IMG/VR virus record: IMGVR_UViG_3300037327_000024
Span: 1 to 47,197 of that record
DNA from: a virus
Length of the DNA: 47,197 nucleotides
Strand: one strand, 5' to 3'
Part shown: positions 29,699 through 42,075 of the stretch, in pieces
Position numbering within the stretch: position 1 is the first letter of the stretch
Layout: every line of letters starts with the position of its first letter
Made by a program: the position numbers and the translations under genes
Notes under the pieces: model-generated
What the model saw: the letters and a program-made list of their open reading frames with translations, nothing else
The model's database searches: none
Told to the model about the DNA's origin: nothing

Positions 29699-31510
29699 AT
29701 GGCAGAGCTATCCCACCATGAAGGATGCCCTAAGTGTATAGCTAAGGGCAAAGACAGGGGAAAAGATAACTTAGCAGTGTACGTTGACGAGAGCGCACAC
29801 TGTTTTTCCTGTTCTTATACAATACCATCTAAAGAGTGGTTAAAAGCTAATGGAGATAAGTCTAGAAGTAAGAGTTATCTAAATGAAGAAGAAGAAGAGG
29901 AGTTAGACGTAGGCGCTATGGCAGAAGATTTTAATTTATCTAATTGGAAGACTATTAGAAAGAAGTGTACACATAACCCTGAAGGCTGGAGAGGACTGAC
30001 TAAGGAGACTTGTCAGTTTTTTGACGTTATGCATGAGTATAACACATCATCAGGGGACTTAGTTAAGCAGTACTATCCTTGTACGAAGGCATACAGCATC
30101 TCAGGAGTGCGTTGGAGGTTTAAAGAACTCAATGACAAGGGTAAGAAGGATTATGGCTCTAGAGGCACTACAGGAGCTGCCTCAGACCTACATGGACAGT
30201 GGAAGTTTAAGAATAGTAACAGCAAGGTTGTAGTGATCACTGCTGGAGAGATTGATCAGATGTCAGGACACCAGATGTTTGAGCTAACTCGTAAGAAAGA
30301 CTACGAGGTTACTCCTATTGTGACTCCCACATCGGGAGAAGGCAGTTCAGCTAAACAGTTACAGGGTCAGTATGAGTGGTTAGATACATTCGAGAAGATC
30401 ATCCTGTGTTATGACAATGATGAGGCAGGACAAGCTGCGATAGTTAAGGCTGTAAAGGTGTTACCTCGCGGTAAAGTCTACGTTATGAAGCTAACCCTTA
30501 ATGACACTAATGATTACTTAATGGCTGGCAGAGAGAAAGAATGGATCAACGCTTTTTGGAAAGCAGAGAGATATATCCCAAGTGGAATACTAGGTAGTGG
30601 AGGCATAAGAGATAAGATGTTAGATTATGTAGTGATACCTAAAATAACATTACCTCCTTTTATGTATAAACTACAAGATTTAATGGCTGGAGGTATACCC
30701 TTAGGTGTTATAGTGGCTATGGGCAGTGCAAGTGGGACTGGTAAGACAACAATAGTAGATGAATGTAGCTATTATTGGTATTTTAATAGCCCTCATAAGC
30801 TAGGGGTGTTAACTTTAGAAGCGGACTCTGCCCAGTATGGGATTAATTTATTATCTAGACATATTGGTGAGAAGATAAACCTCATAGAGTCCCCAGAAGA
30901 CAAATTACTATTCTTAAATAGGCCAGAAGTTAAGAAAGCCTCCGATGAGTTGTTCTTAGATGAGAATGGTCAAGATAGGTTCTTTCTAGTGGAAGAGAGA
31001 GATGGGGATATTAATACAGTTATGGACCTTACAGAGAACTTGATTATAGCTTGTGACTGTAAGGTGATAGTGTTCGATCCTGTGAGTGATGTACTGGAGG
31101 GACTTAGCAACGAAGAGCAAGCTATGTTTTATAAGTGGATGAAAGGTATGGTTAAGGACTACACTGTAACTTTTATACTCATCTCCCATGTTAGGAAGAA
31201 CTCAGGGGGTCAGAAAGCTAATTCTACAGGGGCTGAATTGCATGAAGAAGACTTCTTTGGCAGCGGTAGTATATTTAAATCTTCCGCTTGTAATCTACTA
31301 TTCTCTAGAGATAAAGAAGCTGAGAATGAGTTTGAGAGGAATGTAACTAGAATGAAAGCTACTAAGATAAGGTGGACAGGTAGGACTTCTCCTATAGCAG
31401 GGGAGTATTACTACGATAATGCTACTCATACGATGTTCGACAAGCATAAGTGGTTAGAAGAGCACTCCTCAGATCCTAAAGATAAGAAATTTAGTATGAA
31501 AAAGGTATAG
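29699..31510 (+). CDS. T7 gp4-type primase-helicase
   Basis: Bifunctional replicative protein of 603 aa. The N-terminal zinc ribbon has C10, C13, C35 and C38; the TOPRIM region carries the Glu of TAGEID and the DxD of LCYDNDEAG. The C-terminal RecA-like helicase has Walker A GSASGTGKTT (K349), DPVSDVLE as Walker B-type strand, and LISHVRKN as the conserved His/Arg motif. Domain order and size match T7 gp4. It would unwind DNA ahead of the polymerase and make primers. The tail ends KKFSMKKV, sharing FSMK with two other replication proteins. RBS AGGAG. Confidence 0.95.
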   Translation: MAELSHHEGCPKCIAKGKDRGKDNLAVYVDESAHCFSCSYTIPSKEWLKANGDKSRSKSYLNEEEEEELDVGAMAEDFNLSNWKTIRKKCTHNPEGWRGLTKETCQFFDVMHEYNTSSGDLVKQYYPCTKAYSISGVRWRFKELNDKGKKDYGSRGTTGAASDLHGQWKFKNSNSKVVVITAGEIDQMSGHQMFELTRKKDYEVTPIVTPTSGEGSSAKQLQGQYEWLDTFEKIILCYDNDEAGQAAIVKAVKVLPRGKVYVMKLTLNDTNDYLMAGREKEWINAFWKAERYIPSGILGSGGIRDKMLDYVVIPKITLPPFMYKLQDLMAGGIPLGVIVAMGSASGTGKTTIVDECSYYWYFNSPHKLGVLTLEADSAQYGINLLSRHIGEKINLIESPEDKLLFLNRPEVKKASDELFLDENGQDRFFLVEERDGDINTVMDLTENLIIACDCKVIVFDPVSDVLEGLSNEEQAMFYKWMKGMVKDYTVTFILISHVRKNSGGQKANSTGAELHEEDFFGSGSIFKSSACNLLFSRDKEAENEFERNVTRMKATKIRWTGRTSPIAGEYYYDNATHTMFDKHKWLEEHSSDPKDKKFSMKKV

Positions 31511-31511
31511 T

Positions 31512-32084
31512 ATGAAAATGATATTTGGTAAAGGTACAAACGACTTAGAAGGAGAATCCTCCTCTATAGCCTACACTACTTGGCATAGTATGTTAAGGAG
31601 GTGCTACAGTGATCTATATCAAAAAAGAAAGCCCACTTATAAAGGTTGTAGTGTGAAAGAGGAATGGATGCTTTTTTCTGTATTTAAATTATGGTTTGAC
31701 AAAAACTATATGATAGGTTGGGCTTTAGATAAAGATATACTATTCCTATATAATAAGTTATACTCTGAGGGTACTTGCTGTTTTGTACCCGCAGGGTTAA
31801 ACACATTCTATAGTCATTTATATAGAGTCAAGAAAGATGGAAACCCTTTAGGGGTTTACTTTAAGAAAAGTAATAAAAAGTACGTAGCTCAAGCATCTCT
31901 GATAACTCCCGACGGGAAGAGAGGCTCAGGACACCTACTTATTTCTGAATCCCTTGAAGATTGTGTTAAGGTCTATAAAGAGCATAAAAAGAAGGCTTTA
32001 CTTGAGATGGCAGACTCCTATAAGTCGGTCTTAAAACCTGAGGTCTACAACGCCCTAGTTAATTTTAAATGGGAGGTCTTATGA
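31512..32084 (+). CDS. putative homing endonuclease-like protein with AP2 domain
   Basis: Residues 17-100 carry the AYTTWxxMxRRC, SVKEEW, LDKDIL and TCCFVP pattern shared with the gene at 17369. Residues 115-165 (NPLGVYFKKSNKKYVAQASL onward) form an AP2 DNA-binding domain, as in phage homing endonucleases. It sits between primase-helicase and polymerase, overlapping the latter by 4 bases. No HNH catalytic triad is visible, so cleavage is unproven. Confidence 0.7.
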   Translation: MKMIFGKGTNDLEGESSSIAYTTWHSMLRRCYSDLYQKRKPTYKGCSVKEEWMLFSVFKLWFDKNYMIGWALDKDILFLYNKLYSEGTCCFVPAGLNTFYSHLYRVKKDGNPLGVYFKKSNKKYVAQASLITPDGKRGSGHLLISESLEDCVKVYKEHKKKALLEMADSYKSVLKPEVYNALVNFKWEVL

Positions 32085-33688
32085 AGTCAATAACAAATTT
32101 CCGTAAAGCAACTATAGCGGATGTGGAGGCTAATGGTTTAGACAATGCCACAAAGATACATATTCTATCTTGCACTATGGATGGCAACAAAAAGCACAAC
32201 ACTAGGGGTTCAAACCACGAGAAGCTAAGGCAGTTTCTTAATTACCACATTAAGAATAAGATACCCGTTGTTATGCACAATGGTATTTGCTATGACGTAC
32301 CTCTCTTAAGTAGGTTGTTAGACATTGACCTGTCAGAGTTAATGGTTATAGATAGCCTAGCCCTTAGTTGGTATTTAAACACTGACAGAAAGGTGCATGG
32401 CTTAGATAGCTTCTATGATGACTATGGTATCAAGAAGGTTGCTGTAGAGCAGGAGGACTGGGATTTTCAGAGTGAGTGCCCCGAAGAGTTAGAGGCACAC
32501 TATGAGCGCATGAGAGTACGCTGTGTAGTAGACGTAAAGATAAACAAGAGCCTCTGGGAAGACCTCTTAGAGCGTTTAACTAATATGTATACTATCGTCA
32601 AGGAATCTGTAGATAATGGCTTGGTGGAAGGTACAAGGATGTCTGAGGATGAGGTCTGCTACATAGATCAGTACAAACAATCTTCTAGTGTAGATGACTA
32701 CATAGAGAGAATACTAACCTTTCTTATGTTTAAGATGGACTGCGCTAGACTACAAGAGAAAACTAAGTTTAAGTTAGATATACCTAAACTAGAGAAGCTA
32801 GAAGATAAATTAGAGGGACTGATACTGATAGCTAAGACAGAGTTGGAAGCAGCCCTACCTAAAGTGCCTAAGTATGCTGTCAGGAACTTCCCTAAAAAAC
32901 CTTTTAAGACTGATAGGACTTACTCTGTTTCTGGCCTTACATGGAATGCTCTAGTAGATAAGCTGGACACTGTAGATGAGTATGGCTTTGCTAAGGCTAT
33001 TATAGTGGATGATAAGTCTATCAAGGAGCTGATAGGCCATGACAGCCCTAAGATATCTTCTCCAGCTCAGATAAAGGATTGGTTATTCAGTCATGGATGG
33101 AAGCCTAAGACATTTAAGTTTGTTAAAGATAAGAAAGCTCAACAGATCTGGGTGGACAGTGGCTTTAGGAAAGAGCTTAAGCCTAAGCCTAGAGCTGTAC
33201 CTCAGATCAATCAAGAGAAAGACACAGGTAAAGAGCTTTGTGACAGCGTTGTAGAGCTTGCTAGTAGAATACCTGAGATCATGGCTTACTCTAAGTACAC
33301 TCTTATTAAGCATCGTTATGACATTGTTAAAGGGTTTAGAAGGGATATGTCTCCCGATGGCTATGTTAAGGCCCGTATAGGTGGATTTACTAACACCCTA
33401 AGAGTTAAGCATAGACAGTTAGTTAACCTGCCAGCTATTAATAAAGAGTACGGAGAGGACATAAGAGGGCTGCTTATAGCTGGCGAGAGTAGAACCTTGC
33501 TAGGTAGTGACTTAAGTGGTCTAGAAGATAGGACTAAACACCACTTTATGTTGCCACATGATCCAGAGTATGTACAAACTATGATGTCTCCAGATTATGA
33601 TGCTCACCTAGATATTTGTGTAACTAATGGAACAGTAACTGAAGAGGAGGTTAGATTTTACAAATGGTACAAGACGCAAAGCAAATGA
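32081..33688 (+). CDS. DNA polymerase family A, N-terminal part (exonuclease to motif A)
   Basis: First piece of a T7-like replicative polymerase, 535 aa. Exo I is DVEANGLD (D14, E16), then the exo II-like HNGICYDVPLL and a C-terminal exo III region RCVVDVKIN. Palm motif A is SDLSGLEDR with D477. The chain ends shortly after EEEVRFYKWYK, before the O-helix. The missing motifs B and C are in the gene at 34142. Start ATG 32081 chosen for GGGAGGT; an upstream in-frame start at 32069 is less likely. The two pieces would have to associate to make an active enzyme. Confidence 0.92.
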   Translation: MKSITNFRKATIADVEANGLDNATKIHILSCTMDGNKKHNTRGSNHEKLRQFLNYHIKNKIPVVMHNGICYDVPLLSRLLDIDLSELMVIDSLALSWYLNTDRKVHGLDSFYDDYGIKKVAVEQEDWDFQSECPEELEAHYERMRVRCVVDVKINKSLWEDLLERLTNMYTIVKESVDNGLVEGTRMSEDEVCYIDQYKQSSSVDDYIERILTFLMFKMDCARLQEKTKFKLDIPKLEKLEDKLEGLILIAKTELEAALPKVPKYAVRNFPKKPFKTDRTYSVSGLTWNALVDKLDTVDEYGFAKAIIVDDKSIKELIGHDSPKISSPAQIKDWLFSHGWKPKTFKFVKDKKAQQIWVDSGFRKELKPKPRAVPQINQEKDTGKELCDSVVELASRIPEIMAYSKYTLIKHRYDIVKGFRRDMSPDGYVKARIGGFTNTLRVKHRQLVNLPAINKEYGEDIRGLLIAGESRTLLGSDLSGLEDRTKHHFMLPHDPEYVQTMMSPDYDAHLDICVTNGTVTEEEVRFYKWYKTQSK

Positions 33689-34158
33689 GCTTAGAGGATC
33701 TTTATGAGGAATGTCATAAGAGGTTTAAGTATGTGAATGGGGTACTTTACTTTAAGGGAAATACACACAGTAAGAATAGGAGAGGGGAATCTCCCTCAAG
33801 TGTGAATAATTGTGGCTATTTATTCGTCACAGTTAACTATAAGAGTTACCTAGTTCACCGACTTATATACCTTATGGAACATAAGACTCTCCCAGAGCTA
33901 CTTGACCACATAGACAGGAATAAACAAAACAACAAGGTCGGCAATTTAAGAGCTGCAAATAGGGAGGTGAACTCTTGGAATAGAGATAAACAACAGAATA
34001 ACTCCTCAGGGTATAGGGGAGTTAGTTGGGGGAAGCAGAATAAGAAATGGCACAGCTATATCACAATTAAAGGTAAGAGAGTCAACTTAGGATATTTTAG
34101 GTGTGTCCATGAAGCAGGTAGAGTCGCAGAGGAGGCTAAAAGTGAAATTAAGTTTTGA
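33685..34158 (+). CDS. HNH homing endonuclease with AP2 domain, inserted in the polymerase gene
   Basis: HNH_3 motif: LVHRLIYLMEHKTLPELLDH followed by IDRNKQNNKVGNLR, with the His-Asn-His-type core. The C-terminal AP2 domain is SGYRGVSWGKQNKKWHSYIT then KRVNLGYF. ATG 33685 overlaps the polymerase stop (ATGA); a start at 33664 with distant GAGGAGG is possible. It lies exactly where the polymerase is broken, so it probably targets the intact polymerase gene of related phages between motifs A and B. Confidence 0.9.
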   Translation: MSLEDLYEECHKRFKYVNGVLYFKGNTHSKNRRGESPSSVNNCGYLFVTVNYKSYLVHRLIYLMEHKTLPELLDHIDRNKQNNKVGNLRAANREVNSWNRDKQQNNSSGYRGVSWGKQNKKWHSYITIKGKRVNLGYFRCVHEAGRVAEEAKSEIKF

Positions 34159-34735
34159 AGAGATGAAGGGCTTAAACCCTAAAGACCAGATGGAAATAAT
34201 AGAGAGACTTTCAGGTTTAAGATCACAAGGAAAGTCCACCAACTACAGTTCAGTGTATAACATAGGGGCTGATGCACTTTCAAGAGATTTAGACGTTGCT
34301 GTGAGAGTTGCTAAGGCACTCCTAGAGGGGTATTGGCAGTTAAACTGGAGTGTAAAGACTATAGCAGAGGAGCAGTTTGTCTTCCAAGATGACTACGGCA
34401 ATAACTGGTTAGTAAATCCTATCAATGGGTTCTGTTATTCTCTAAGAAAAGACTCGGATAGGTTCAGTACATTATGTCAGGGTACAGGATCATTCTTTTT
34501 CGATATGTGGGTTGACATCATATTGACGGAAATGTACACTCTTTGGGGTCGGAAGTCATTAAGTGCATCTTTTCATGACGAAATAGTATTAGCATTTAAA
34601 GATAGCCCTAAGTTAAGAAAGATATTTAGTGAATTAGTTTTAAAAGCTATTGACACAGTAAACAAGAAGTATATACTTAGGAGAGATTTAGGGGCTGATG
34701 TTCAGTTTGGCAACAGTTACGCAGAGATACACTAG
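34142..34735 (+). CDS. DNA polymerase family A, C-terminal part (motifs B and C)
   Basis: Second piece of the split polymerase, 197 aa. GTG 34142 is preceded by GGAGG with six bases spacing, inside the end of the HNH gene. The O-helix motif B is KSTNYSSVYNIGADALS (K31) and motif C is ASFHDEIV (H145-D146-E147). Together with 32081-33688 it gives all catalytic motifs in order, with nothing essential visibly lost. A separate ribosome-binding site shows it can be translated on its own; intron splicing is not needed to explain it. Confidence 0.9.
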   Translation: MKLSFEEMKGLNPKDQMEIIERLSGLRSQGKSTNYSSVYNIGADALSRDLDVAVRVAKALLEGYWQLNWSVKTIAEEQFVFQDDYGNNWLVNPINGFCYSLRKDSDRFSTLCQGTGSFFFDMWVDIILTEMYTLWGRKSLSASFHDEIVLAFKDSPKLRKIFSELVLKAIDTVNKKYILRRDLGADVQFGNSYAEIH

Positions 34736-34746
34736 GGGGAGAATGT

Positions 34747-35313
34747 ATGAGAAAGTTATTTATAGACCAAAAAGGCCTTTGTCGTTCGGATAGAACCAAA
34801 ATCGCCAATACTTTACGTAAGTTAGGGGCTAATTGGTATAACGGCACTACCCATAGCCTACACCTAGGCAAGAATTTTATATACTTAATAGGTGATGAGC
34901 TTACTTGGTCATCAACTAGAGTGGCTGAATTAGAAAGTTATACAGAAGTAACCTTAAAAGAACTATTGGAGATGACGATGCAAGAGGATCAGATAAAACT
35001 AACTAACTTTGTAACTATTACACTAACTTACGGAGAGCTTTTAAGAGCTGGAGTTGTAGGTGCAAGAACTAATGGCAACAGACGAGGAAAAAGCGTATAC
35101 CAAATAGCTCTAGATACTTTTGGAAGGGATATTATAGACCCTTGTGTCGCTAAATATTGCGCTAATAGTCAAGATTACTCAAGTTCTCAGTTAGAGTGTG
35201 AAGCTATAGCTTTCTCTCCTAAGCTGTCTGAAAAAGAAATTCAAATGAATGCTTTACAACAGAAAATTACTGAGCTACAATCAACTTACGATAACTTAAA
35301 GGACACTTTATAA
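34747..35313 (+). CDS. hypothetical protein (188 aa)
   Basis: ATG 34747 behind GGGGGAGAATGT. N-terminal part (MRKLFIDQKGLCRSDRTKIA) looks like a small alpha/beta domain; the middle helix-rich; the end is a coiled coil (LQQKITELQSTYDNLKD). No family recognised. Confidence 0.6.
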   Translation: MRKLFIDQKGLCRSDRTKIANTLRKLGANWYNGTTHSLHLGKNFIYLIGDELTWSSTRVAELESYTEVTLKELLEMTMQEDQIKLTNFVTITLTYGELLRAGVVGARTNGNRRGKSVYQIALDTFGRDIIDPCVAKYCANSQDYSSSQLECEAIAFSPKLSEKEIQMNALQQKITELQSTYDNLKDTL

Positions 35314-35765
35314 TGAGAGTTAAGCAACCTGAGACAGCTATACGTCAGTTAGAGGCTCTAATAGTTACTGCCACTAATGCAAAACTATCAGAGAGCATTT
35401 TAGATATGACTGCATGGAAAACAATACATGAATGTGGTTACGCAGCCTGCCTGATTGGATACCAAAGTTTGTCAAAGAACTTAAAAGAGTTCCCTTGCGC
35501 GGATGCTAGTGATTATACCACTACTAGGGATATGTGCGAGACTATAACTGATGACTTAGATGCGTCTTTAGGGTATGCCTTGTCAAGGTCTATATGGGAA
35601 GGGGGAGACAGAGAAGGTTATGCTGAGTGTTCAGGTATGTTTAGTATAGAGGAGATCAGCACATTTTCACACCTACGAAAAGGCAGCACTAGCTTTGACT
35701 CTGCTATATACTATATGTCGGCTATTATAGCTAAAATTAAAACTCAAAAAGGGGGTAGAATCTAA
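35313..35765 (+). CDS. hypothetical protein (150 aa), paralogue of the next gene
   Basis: Shares about one third of its residues by eye with the protein at 35765, with the common core W-x-TIH-x-CG-x-AACL-x-GYQ-x-LS. Such Cys/His motifs occur in a widespread phage hypothetical family. TAATG overlap upstream. Tandem duplication; function unknown. Confidence 0.65.
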   Translation: MRVKQPETAIRQLEALIVTATNAKLSESILDMTAWKTIHECGYAACLIGYQSLSKNLKEFPCADASDYTTTRDMCETITDDLDASLGYALSRSIWEGGDREGYAECSGMFSIEEISTFSHLRKGSTSFDSAIYYMSAIIAKIKTQKGGRI

Positions 35766-37981: not shown

Positions 37982-39046
37982 ATGGCAGGTTTTAGTATGA
38001 AGGCGAAGCTAGGGGCTGTTGATACCAGCCCCGATGCTTTCGAGCTAGACGGAGACCCAGACATTATCGCAGTGTTTGATGCTGATGAGATAGCATTTAT
38101 TGTAGCAGCGGCTTGTGAACAACGTATGGTTAAGGTGACTAACTCTAGTAATAAAGCAGAGGGAGTGCTTAAGAATAGAACAGAGTTTAAGAAGTTAGTT
38201 GCAGGGCTAGAAATACCAGAAGACTTTTTCTCTTACGAAGATGTACAGATAGCAGAGCCTATTCAGAACGCCATAAGCACTATTAAGAAGCGTATTGCAA
38301 AGCAGGCTAAAAGAGTTAACGCTGGAGTGTACGAACTATACATTGGAGGAGTAGATAACTTTAGGGATTCCTTGCCCTTACCTACTAAGTATAAGTCTAA
38401 CCGTAAAGAGACAGTTAAGCCTTTACTACTTAAAGAGATTAGAAGCTACCTAATTGATTACAAAGGTGCCACTGTAATAGATGGTAGAGAAACAGATGAT
38501 AAAGTCACCAGTAGAATGTATGATGGTTTTAAGTCAGGACAAAAGATAGTGGCGATAACTCAAGATAAAGACGCAATGCAATCTAGTGGGTGGCTACTAA
38601 ACCCTAATAAAGAGGAACCAGCCGTTTTCATAAAAGGGTTAGGAAAACTCTACATTGACAACTCAGGTTCAAAACCTAAGGTTAGAGGGATAGGCAGAAA
38701 ATTCTTATATTTCCAGTGTCTGACAGGTGATGCTGTTGATGGATATAACCCTAGAGACTTAGTTTCCTTAGTGAAAGGTAAAAGACCTGTATTTGGGGAT
38801 ATGGCAGCCTACAAGCTCTTATTAGAAGCTAACTCAGACTTACAGTGCTTACAAGTTATAGTTAATACCTATAAAAAATGGTTTGGAGAGTTAGAGTTTA
38901 CCTACAACTGTTGGGAAGGTGTAACACATAAGATAACTTGGCTAGAGGCACTTCAAATGTATTGGGACTCCGCATATATGCAGAGGTTCGAGGGAGATAG
39001 AGTGGTAGTTAAAGAGTTATTAATGAAACTTAAGGTTGTTCTATGA
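37982..39046 (+). CDS. 5'-3' exonuclease / flap endonuclease (FEN-like, T7 gp6-type)
   Basis: 354 aa. The acidic clusters of the FEN family are visible: AVFDADEIAFIVAAA near residue 30, REIRS-type helix followed by VIDGRETDDKV near residue 165, VAITQDKDAM near residue 190, and the helix-hairpin-helix-like FQCLTGDAVDGY near residue 245. It would remove RNA primers and degrade host DNA. N-terminus MAGFSMKAK shares FSMK with the SSB-like protein. RBS TAGGAGATATT. Its end overlaps an HNH gene. Confidence 0.85.
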   Translation: MAGFSMKAKLGAVDTSPDAFELDGDPDIIAVFDADEIAFIVAAACEQRMVKVTNSSNKAEGVLKNRTEFKKLVAGLEIPEDFFSYEDVQIAEPIQNAISTIKKRIAKQAKRVNAGVYELYIGGVDNFRDSLPLPTKYKSNRKETVKPLLLKEIRSYLIDYKGATVIDGRETDDKVTSRMYDGFKSGQKIVAITQDKDAMQSSGWLLNPNKEEPAVFIKGLGKLYIDNSGSKPKVRGIGRKFLYFQCLTGDAVDGYNPRDLVSLVKGKRPVFGDMAAYKLLLEANSDLQCLQVIVNTYKKWFGELEFTYNCWEGVTHKITWLEALQMYWDSAYMQRFEGDRVVVKELLMKLKVVL

Positions 39047-39573
39047 CACCCTCTTCAAGAGCAGAGGCTAGAGCTATGGGAGCTAAGAGTTACTTCAACG
39101 GACAGCCTTGTTTTAATAGCCATGTAGCTCTTAGAAGGACGGATACTGGGTCTTGTATGGAGTGCAGGAAGATACAGTCTAAAAGGTGGAGAACTGTAGG
39201 TAGGGTTTCATCAGATGATTTAATAAGGGGTAAAGACCTGCCTAACTTAGAGCTGTTAAACAAACGGTTCATAGCAGATTTCCATAATGGTGTCCTATAT
39301 TGGAAAAGTATTAAAGAGTTTACAAAAGAAGATAAGATTTTTAATTCTTTACATTCTGGGGCTATTGTAGGACACTTAAACAAAACTACAAACTACACTG
39401 AGGTCAGATTAGAGAATAAACTATATAAACTTCATAGAATACTTTTTAAAATGTACCATAAACATGAGCCTACTATACTAGACCATATAGATAGAGACAG
39501 AAATAATAACTCTATAAGTAATCTAAGGGAGTGTACTGCGAAAGAAAACAGCCTGAATAGGGGTAGTAAATGA
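39043..39573 (+). CDS. HNH homing endonuclease with N-terminal zinc-finger-like motif
   Basis: ATGA overlap with the exonuclease gene. The N-terminal FNGQPCFNSHVALRRTDTGS then CMECRK holds C-x3-H and C-x2-C, the finger found in a set of phage HNH enzymes. The C-terminal HNH_3 motif is KLHRILFKMYHKHEPTILDH and IDRDRNNNSISNLR. Probably a free-standing homing gene that moved in behind the exonuclease. Complete, 176 aa. Confidence 0.85.
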   Translation: MTPSSRAEARAMGAKSYFNGQPCFNSHVALRRTDTGSCMECRKIQSKRWRTVGRVSSDDLIRGKDLPNLELLNKRFIADFHNGVLYWKSIKEFTKEDKIFNSLHSGAIVGHLNKTTNYTEVRLENKLYKLHRILFKMYHKHEPTILDHIDRDRNNNSISNLRECTAKENSLNRGSK

Positions 39574-40112
39574 AGGAAAAGATGTGGGGTGAAGGAACAC
39601 CTTGGAAGACACAAGCAGCATTCTTCAACTACATTAGAGGGGGTATTAGGAGAGGACTTTGGCTTCGTCATCCCTCGAAAATACAGCTCCTCCATCATAA
39701 ACGTAAGAGGGTGGCGTTAGGCAAGAAGACTAGGACTAACCCTAAGGGTTTGATATGGGGTTGTCAATGTGATATATGTAAGAAAGACTTTAAACAGTCT
39801 GACGTACAAGTAGACCATTTGAAAGGCAGTAACAAGCTTAAGGACGAAGATGATTTAAAGTCCTTTTTAATGGCGATGGTATTTGTTAAAGAGAGAGACT
39901 TACAGATAGTTTGTAAGCCTTGCCATACGACTAAAACCTACAGCGAATCTAGAGGGGTGTCATTTGAAGAGGCTCAAGTACAGAAAAAAGCTATTGAGAT
40001 CATTAAGTCAAAGGAGGACAAAGTATTTCTTCGAGGAAAAGGAATCGTCCCCGCTTCCAATGCGAAGTCTAGAAGAGAGCAGTTGGTGATGTATTTATTA
40101 GGAGAAGAGTAA
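39570..40112 (+). CDS. HNH endonuclease, probably a phage recombination/resolution nuclease
   Basis: 180 aa. GTPWKTQAAFFNYIRGGIRR followed by LWLRHPSKIQLL is a typical start of a family found beside exonuclease genes in T7-like phages, and CDICKKDF, QVDHLKG and LQIVCKPCHTTKTY supply the HNH zinc and catalytic His residues. Because related phages keep it at this place, it is likely native, functionally standing in for T7 gp3 endonuclease I, rather than a homing gene. The role is inference. Confidence 0.75.
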   Translation: MKEKMWGEGTPWKTQAAFFNYIRGGIRRGLWLRHPSKIQLLHHKRKRVALGKKTRTNPKGLIWGCQCDICKKDFKQSDVQVDHLKGSNKLKDEDDLKSFLMAMVFVKERDLQIVCKPCHTTKTYSESRGVSFEEAQVQKKAIEIIKSKEDKVFLRGKGIVPASNAKSRREQLVMYLLGEE

Positions 40113-40503: not shown

Positions 40504-41509
40504 AATAGTTTGGTTAGAAGAAGCAATAAAGTTAGATACTCTTGGCATGTCTTGGAGAAAGATATCTACGAAGTTAGGTATCCCTAAGTCCACTGTCAGT
40601 GATAACTTAAGGAAAGTCTTTAAAAATAAAACTAGGGAGGTCAAAGTTATTAATAAACCAGAGGTTAAGACTCTAGTACATGATATTGGAGTATACAAAA
40701 TAGAGACTGTCTTAGAAGTAGGCCCTAATGTAACTCATTTAATGATCCCAGATACCCAGTGTAAAGAAGGGGTGGATATGACTTACCTATCCCTCGTAGG
40801 GGAATATATCGCGGATAAGAAGCCTGAGGTTATAGTCCACATTGGAGACCACGCGGATATGCCATCTCTATCCTCTTATGATAGAGGTAAGAAATCAGCA
40901 GAAGGTCGTAGAGTAAAATCTGATATAGATGCTGCTATAGTAGGTATGAACCTATTACTTAAGCCTTTGTATGACTTACAGCAAGCAGAGTCCCTAGAAT
41001 ACGGAGAGGTGAGGTATAAACCTAAAATGGTCTTTACACTAGGCAACCATGAAGAGAGAATCATGAGACACGTTAATGCTAATCCTGAGTTAGGGGGTTT
41101 CATGAGCTATGACAACTTAAGGTATGGGGATATGGGATGGGAAGTCTATGATTACTTACAACCTGTAATAGTTAATGGAGTTAGTTATTGTCACTTTATG
41201 GCAAACCCAATGACAGGGAAGCCTTATGGAGGAGCTGCGCTTAATATCCTTAAGCAAGTGGGAGAGAGCTTCTGTATGGGACATAAGCAGACTCTAGATG
41301 TAGCTACTAGGTTCTTACCTTCAAGCGGTAAACAGCAATGGGCTATTATTGCGGGAGCATGTTACACTCATGATGAAGACTACAAAGGGTATCAAGGAAA
41401 CCACCATTGGAGAGGTATAGTTGTAAAACATAACACTAAGGAAGGTAGTTTTAATCCTATGTTTGTGAGCTTGGACTACCTAGAGCAAAGATATAGAGTT
41501 GGTTTGTGA
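40496..41509 (+). CDS. calcineurin-type metallophosphoesterase with N-terminal HTH
   Basis: 337 aa, TTG start after GGAG. Residues 5-40 form a helix-turn-helix (DTLGMSWRKISTKLGIPKST). The catalytic domain shows PDTQ, GDHADMPS, GNHEER and later a GxCYTHD-type His, the metal ligands of calcineurin-like phosphoesterases. Such fusions occur near replication genes in many phages. Substrate unknown; nucleic acid or cyclic nucleotide are possibilities. Confidence 0.85.
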   Translation: MSKIVWLEEAIKLDTLGMSWRKISTKLGIPKSTVSDNLRKVFKNKTREVKVINKPEVKTLVHDIGVYKIETVLEVGPNVTHLMIPDTQCKEGVDMTYLSLVGEYIADKKPEVIVHIGDHADMPSLSSYDRGKKSAEGRRVKSDIDAAIVGMNLLLKPLYDLQQAESLEYGEVRYKPKMVFTLGNHEERIMRHVNANPELGGFMSYDNLRYGDMGWEVYDYLQPVIVNGVSYCHFMANPMTGKPYGGAALNILKQVGESFCMGHKQTLDVATRFLPSSGKQQWAIIAGACYTHDEDYKGYQGNHHWRGIVVKHNTKEGSFNPMFVSLDYLEQRYRVGL

Positions 41510-42075
41510 GCTTAGAAGTATGGAAGGATGTCCTTGGATATGAAGGTTTCTATCAAGTCAGTGATAAAGGTAGGGTTAAAAGTGTTGATAGAAGGGTAGT
41601 TTACTCTAATGGGAGGGTCTATAACTACAGAGAGAAAACACTCAAGCCAGCCATAGATAAGGATGGGTATTGTGTTATTGGACTCTGCGTCAAACAAAAA
41701 ATAAAGGTTAAAAAAGTCCACAGGCTTGTAGCTGAGTGTTTTATAGATAACTTAGAGAATAAACCTCAGGTTAATCATAAAGATGGGATTAAGTGTAATA
41801 ATCATGTAGGTAACTTGGAGTGGTGTACTTGTTCTGAAAATCAGAGGCACTGTAATGATACAGGTTTGAGAGTGGCTGGAAAAGGGGATAAAGCCACCTC
41901 CAATAAGTTAACAGAGATTGACGTAGGGTTTATAAGGTTATGGATAAAATTAGGGCATAGTCAGAGAGAGATAGCTAAGATTTTTAAAGTACACTTCGCA
42001 ACTATCTCTTGTATCCACGTAGGTAAGAGTTGGGTAGAACTAGGAGAAACCTATGAAATACAGAGTACAAGTTAA
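41506..42075 (+). CDS. NUMOD4-HNH homing endonuclease
   Basis: GTG start overlaps the phosphoesterase stop. Domains in order: NUMOD4 (EVWKDVLGYEGFYQVSDKGR), HNH_3 (KVHRLVAECFIDNLENKPQV then NHKDGIKCNNHVGNLEW), and a C-terminal HTH (LGHSQREIAKIFKVHFATIS) for DNA recognition. 189 aa, complete. It sits directly behind the phosphoesterase, its likely protected or targeted gene. Confidence 0.9.
   Translation: MSLEVWKDVLGYEGFYQVSDKGRVKSVDRRVVYSNGRVYNYREKTLKPAIDKDGYCVIGLCVKQKIKVKKVHRLVAECFIDNLENKPQVNHKDGIKCNNHVGNLEWCTCSENQRHCNDTGLRVAGKGDKATSNKLTEIDVGFIRLWIKLGHSQREIAKIFKVHFATISCIHVGKSWVELGETYEIQSTS

Follow-up and report, generated by a model that had tools for sequence, protein, structure and literature searches.

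The polymerase locus

The window, by which we mean the whole stretch of DNA analysed, is a 47-kb viral contig (47,197 nucleotides). Its polymerase locus reads, in order, primase-helicase (29699-31510), an HNH gene (31512-32084, phrog_953), PolN, an HNH_3+AP2 nuclease gene and PolC. PolN and PolC encode, in two frames, a T7-like (phrog_17) family A DNA polymerase. The features of the split gene are as follows, the invariance of the PolC residues being judged among 18 relatives:

32081-33688, plus strand: PolN, the N-terminal chain (535 aa), with 3'-5' exonuclease, thumb and the palm carrying motif A
33503-33532, plus strand: motif A, GSDLSGLEDR, in which D477 and E482 are invariant in an alignment of 19 relatives
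33664-34158, plus strand: HNH_3+AP2 homing-type endonuclease gene, overlapping the PolN 3' end and the PolC 5' end
34130-34135, plus strand: Shine-Dalgarno sequence AGGAGG of PolC, 6 nt upstream of GTG 34142
34142-34735, plus strand: PolC, the C-terminal chain (197 aa), with the fingers O helix and motif B, and palm motif C
34220-34258, plus strand: motif B, RSQGKSTNYSSVY (R..K...Y...Y), aligning with the Taq O helix; R27, K31, Y35 and Y39 are invariant
34574-34582, plus strand: motif C, HDE; H145 and D146 are invariant and E147 nearly so

PolN matched phrog_17 in a profile search (E=5.6e-56), and up to nucleotide 33607 it is 97% identical to the uninterrupted gene of a close relative, L019 (IMGVR_UViG_3300022822_000103). 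Its start is preceded by a strong Shine-Dalgarno sequence, GGGAGG (anti-SD duplex energy -10.8 kcal/mol). In a Foldseek comparison the PolN model hit T7 DNA polymerase (E=4e-15); when PolN is folded alone, the exonuclease and thumb are predicted confidently and residues 468-495, including motif A, poorly (pLDDT below 50).

PolC matched phrog_17 (3.3e-23) and Pfam DNA_pol_A (7e-7). It most likely starts at GTG 34142, 17 nt inside the end of the nuclease gene, rather than at the GTG 34103 chosen by the ORF caller: the Shine-Dalgarno duplex of GTG 34142 (-12.0 kcal/mol) is equalled or beaten by only 0.45% of the 2241 start-like codons of the window, and GTG 34103 and ATG 34109 were both rejected for their weak Shine-Dalgarno sequences. 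The AlphaFold2 model of PolC (pLDDT 88.8) matches residues 507-704 of T7 polymerase (VIA-align Z 10.8) and also residues 692-876 of Bst, so that PolC alone is predicted with confidence to fold as the corresponding part of the T7 enzyme. Since its alignment with Taq begins at the O helix and the structural matches agree, the cut falls within the fingers, ahead of the O helix, and leaves palm motifs A and C on different chains.

Chance resemblance is excluded by the two phrog_17 matches and by the 97% identical uninterrupted relative. PolN/PolC is thus a family A polymerase by sequence and fold, with each catalytic motif accounted for over two chains. It departs from the family in its chain layout: such an enzyme is a single polypeptide, and here palm and fingers are split over separate frames. 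The initial annotation had proposed a polymerase split by an HNH gene between motifs A and B, a second piece with its own Shine-Dalgarno sequence and GTG inside the end of that gene, and no missing motif; each of these claims held. Its statement that the N-terminal piece ends just after motif A was slightly loose, PolN ending 58 residues past the motif A aspartate D477 (nucleotide 33509).

The nuclease gene matches Pfam HNH_3 (1.5e-8; 34.6 bits, cut-off 24.8) and phrog_99 (1.2e-44), and its AP2 domain scored 25.4 bits, under the cut-off of 33.3. Its start, ATG 33664, has a strong Shine-Dalgarno sequence (-12.4 kcal/mol); an alternative start at 33685 has none and was rejected. It fits a free-standing HNH homing endonuclease in that (i), the nuclease motif scores above its cut-off, (ii), no intron or intein surrounds it and (iii), an uninterrupted allele exists in a close relative (L019), with co-converted flanks covering the tract 33608-34336.

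An uninterrupted relative and the replaced tract

L019 encodes a single-chain polymerase, and its matching flanking genes are mostly 94-98% identical to those of the window. Along the polymerase gene, identity is 97-100% to nucleotide 33607, falls to chance level over 33608-34336 and then returns to about 100%. This profile shows that what was gained is a 0.73-kb tract, more than a nuclease gene. The tract is in frame at both edges, comprises the PolN tail, the nuclease gene and the PolC head with motif B, and took the place of the stretch from the end of the motif A region through motif B, linker included. It is bounded and marked by:

33608-33688, plus strand: split-type PolN tail, TEEEVRFYKWYKTQSK, which opens the tract at the point where L019 identity drops from 97-100% to chance
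34142-34219, plus strand: split-type PolC head, KLSFEEMKGLNPKDQMEIIERLSGL, found in split alleles only, with helices predicted at residues 5-9 and 13-38
34336/34337, no strand: right edge of the tract, where L019 identity is back to about 100%

The split in the window is thus a replacement by a tract with its own tail and head, beyond the simple insertion of a bare nuclease gene. The same kind of mosaic was found in another phage group, between the split allele L065 and the intact allele L067 (4930-5550). Both patterns are what co-conversion during homing would leave, homing itself being inferred. The dN/dS values against L019 are low in both halves (0.0050/0.110 and 0.0062/0.054). Because the tract around the site was recently shared among some phages, it is possible that most of the low dN/dS outside the tract predates the split.

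Other HNH genes lie in the window, which holds at least five HNH endonuclease genes. The one between the primase-helicase and the polymerase (31512-32084; phrog_953, E=5.7e-56) is missing from the near-identical L019, and the adjacent part of the primase-helicase (30565-31470) also diverges from L019. Three more (39043-39573, 39570-40112 and 41506-42075) are found in the replication and nucleotide module.

Recurrence of the split and its shared joint

Scanning first with the two polymerase halves and afterwards with only the joint identified seven other uncultured phages split at the identical position:

L061 and L194: same-site split with HNH_3/AP2 nucleases
L065, L124 and L195: same-site split with Endonuclease_7 nucleases
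L192 and L196: same-site split without a nuclease

The recurrence with two unrelated nuclease families and the two nuclease-free splits are direct observations. In L192, a deletion between two GCTAGA repeats, which looks recent, took out the nuclease and left its first and last bases, with both polymerase frames open. In L196, fewer than 40 nt separate the PolN stop from the PolC start. In a PolN tree built with the tract left out, the split alleles are dispersed among intact ones, requiring 7 changes, 6 of them forced by well-supported branches. Among the 119 distinct motif A-C segments of the earlier scans, 108 are intact, 6 contain inteins as in-frame inserts, and 5 are interrupted by a stop or a change of frame, the intron of Escherichia phage 4HA13 accounting for one of these 5.

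Further interruptions were seen in individual relatives. The polymerase of L065 (3064-6008) lies in three frames, in the order exonuclease, DNA methyltransferase-like gene (phrog_757, E=1.5e-54), palm, Endonuclease_7 gene and PolC. The polymerase gene of the L196 phage (as L204, 4992-6617) is interrupted in two ways, by the nuclease-free split and by a complete intein at motif B of PolC. Motif B also holds intein-like inserts, in frame, in L010, L016, L020, L043, L070 (PV206818.1) and L112 (Acinetobacter phage Herod), two of them in records annotated solely as DNA polymerase. Phage 4HA13 (L111, 4211-4823) has, at polymerase motif B, a group I intron that contains an HNH gene and scores 26.6 bits, below the Rfam gathering score.

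A first objection is that a group I intron at the split is spliced from the message. Phage polymerase genes commonly contain introns that carry an HNH or Endo VII gene (PMC3428280, PMC6083498), and the 4HA13 intron lies close to the split position. We nevertheless consider this reading very unlikely: (i), no Rfam match was found at E<=1 in 31000-35500, while the same library detects the 4HA13 intron (E=0.0013); (ii), the HNH frame takes up the gap of roughly 450 nt, so that an intron core would not fit; (iii), PolC possesses its own strong Shine-Dalgarno sequence and GTG; and (iv), L196 stays split with its very short gap. At gathering thresholds, Rfam gave no match in L010, L016, L020, L043, L061, L065 or L070; where one of these has an in-frame insert, the insert is an intein.

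A second possibility is that the halves are covalently joined, be it by a split intein, by frameshifting or by ribosomal bypassing. Inteins do occur at motif B in relatives, and fractured genes that combine split inteins with a homing endonuclease have been described (Dassa 2009, cited in PMC6892783). However, the end of PolN and the beginning of PolC are polymerase sequence with no splicing domain on either, and nine in-frame stops lie in the gap between them. The HNH stop comes so soon after the PolC start that reading through would yield an HNH-PolC fusion at most, and L196 has the split joint in addition to a separate, complete intein. Covalent joining is again very unlikely.

The split alleles share more than a position. 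Their PolN tails have a common form, typically ...FYxW[YF]..., the FYxWY tail occurring in split alleles only, and their PolC heads follow the consensus LTxEEMKALPPExQKxIIxRIxxxRK. These tail and head segments were not found in any intact relative compared, and a scan of IMG/VR with the head pattern matched split alleles only. A 42-aa joint query against 50,697 phage records gave no match at E<=10, and the joint pattern hit 110 stretches in bacterial genome contigs, with no relative among them. Some intact polymerases have other long linkers (L062, phiM6, Acibel004 and Ep020, with NYKWY in phiM6), so the joint could conceivably derive from an unsampled intact lineage with a long linker.

In the PolC frame, pooled pS across the heads of seven split alleles is 0.95 and pN is 0.30; the other frames lack such a signal. 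The head is thus under strong purifying selection in the PolC frame. We regard this as the best indication that translation yields PolC and that selection acts on it as a protein in the split state, an inference drawn from sequence alone.

This bears on a third objection, that the polymerase gene is broken and replication of the phage relies on another polymerase, from the host or elsewhere. Alleles with this split are known from uncultured contigs only, and activity data are absent. However, the catalytic motifs are intact in both halves of all split alleles compared, both halves remain open after nuclease loss, and no polymerase gene besides PolN/PolC was seen among the window genes scanned. 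Because the motifs are conserved and the joint is under selection, a dead gene is unlikely.

A probable two-chain polymerase and its known counterparts

The locus likely encodes a split T7-like family A polymerase, with a free-standing homing endonuclease gene in the split and two chains that would reassemble non-covalently. The activity and target of the nuclease, translation, assembly and polymerase activity are all inferred. Two separate chains are the best-supported reading because intron and intein signals are absent, the genes have strong starts and conserved open frames, and the split recurs and persists after nuclease loss. The initial annotation had likewise proposed two separately made chains reassembling non-covalently, and this is supported as the best reading, the reassembly remaining an inference. 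Our analysis refines it in two respects: the cut precedes the O helix in the fingers, and the replaced tract brings its own tail and head segments.

We propose that one message would be read as three overlapping genes, PolN, HNH and PolC, each from its own start, and that PolN and PolC would come together non-covalently as one active polymerase, with PolN contributing motif A and PolC motifs B and C to a common catalytic centre. PolN would not be enough by itself, since in the intron-bearing phage Pf-WMP3 exon 1 on its own is reported to have exonuclease and no synthesis activity (PMC3428280). The putative nuclease would cut an uninterrupted polymerase allele, and repair would bring in the nuclease gene with flanking coding sequence (PolN tail, PolC head and motif B). 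The recipient polymerase would pass from one chain to two in a single step, and the element would move as a cassette.

A bolder reading, which we offer tentatively and would not yet favour, is that of a portable split-joint cassette: the selfish nuclease would spare the essential gene that it occupies by means of a matched tail and head, with which the interrupted enzyme would reassemble from two chains, replacing RNA or protein splicing. On this bolder reading, the joint would outlast the nuclease and would have been adopted by unrelated nucleases.

In the literature that we searched, the following are new: where the family A enzyme is cut, that the split recurs with two nuclease families, that split alleles have a joint in common, and that some of them survive without a nuclease. 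Mobile nucleases in essential genes are normally tolerated through intron or intein removal, whereas here the gene remains cut. With a recurrent cut at the catalytic fingers of a replicative polymerase, unrelated nucleases and extra joint sequence, a third way of tolerating invasion becomes directly testable. The split polymerase also provides a natural and transferable blueprint for DNA polymerases made in two parts.

Several known systems resemble this locus in part. Aeromonas phages 25 and 44RR also have a two-chain phage replicative polymerase, gp43A/gp43B, with a homing endonuclease gene (seg) between the two in phage 25, where the split proteins co-purify with polymerase activity (PMC2988022). 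That enzyme belongs to family B and its nuclease is of the GIY-YIG type, whereas the present one is a family A polymerase interrupted within the fingers, accompanied by nucleases of the HNH_3 or Endo VII type and by tails that the split alleles share and that are specific to them; homing endonucleases of the Endo VII type have been described (PMC6083498). In Aeromonas phage Aeh1, a free-standing HNH gene (mobE) likewise lies in a functionally critical region of an essential gene, nrdA, making two chains, and the split NrdA is fully functional (PMC2988022). It is a ribonucleotide reductase in one documented phage, whereas here a polymerase is split in several phages and by two unrelated nuclease families. 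In the isolated, lytic OM43 phages MEP401/402, too, a family A polymerase is encoded by two ORFs that flank a small gene (PMC10580990, OP830906). Their cut falls before motif A, which leaves the second chain with all three catalytic motifs, and the intervening 77-aa ORF has no known homology; we rejected MEP401 as an identical system on the position of its cut. Finally, the 4HA13 and Pf-WMP3 introns and the inteins of L010, L016, L020, L043, L070 and L112 are mobile elements in the same fingers/motif B region. These introns and inteins splice out and restore one chain, whereas the locus described here removes nothing.
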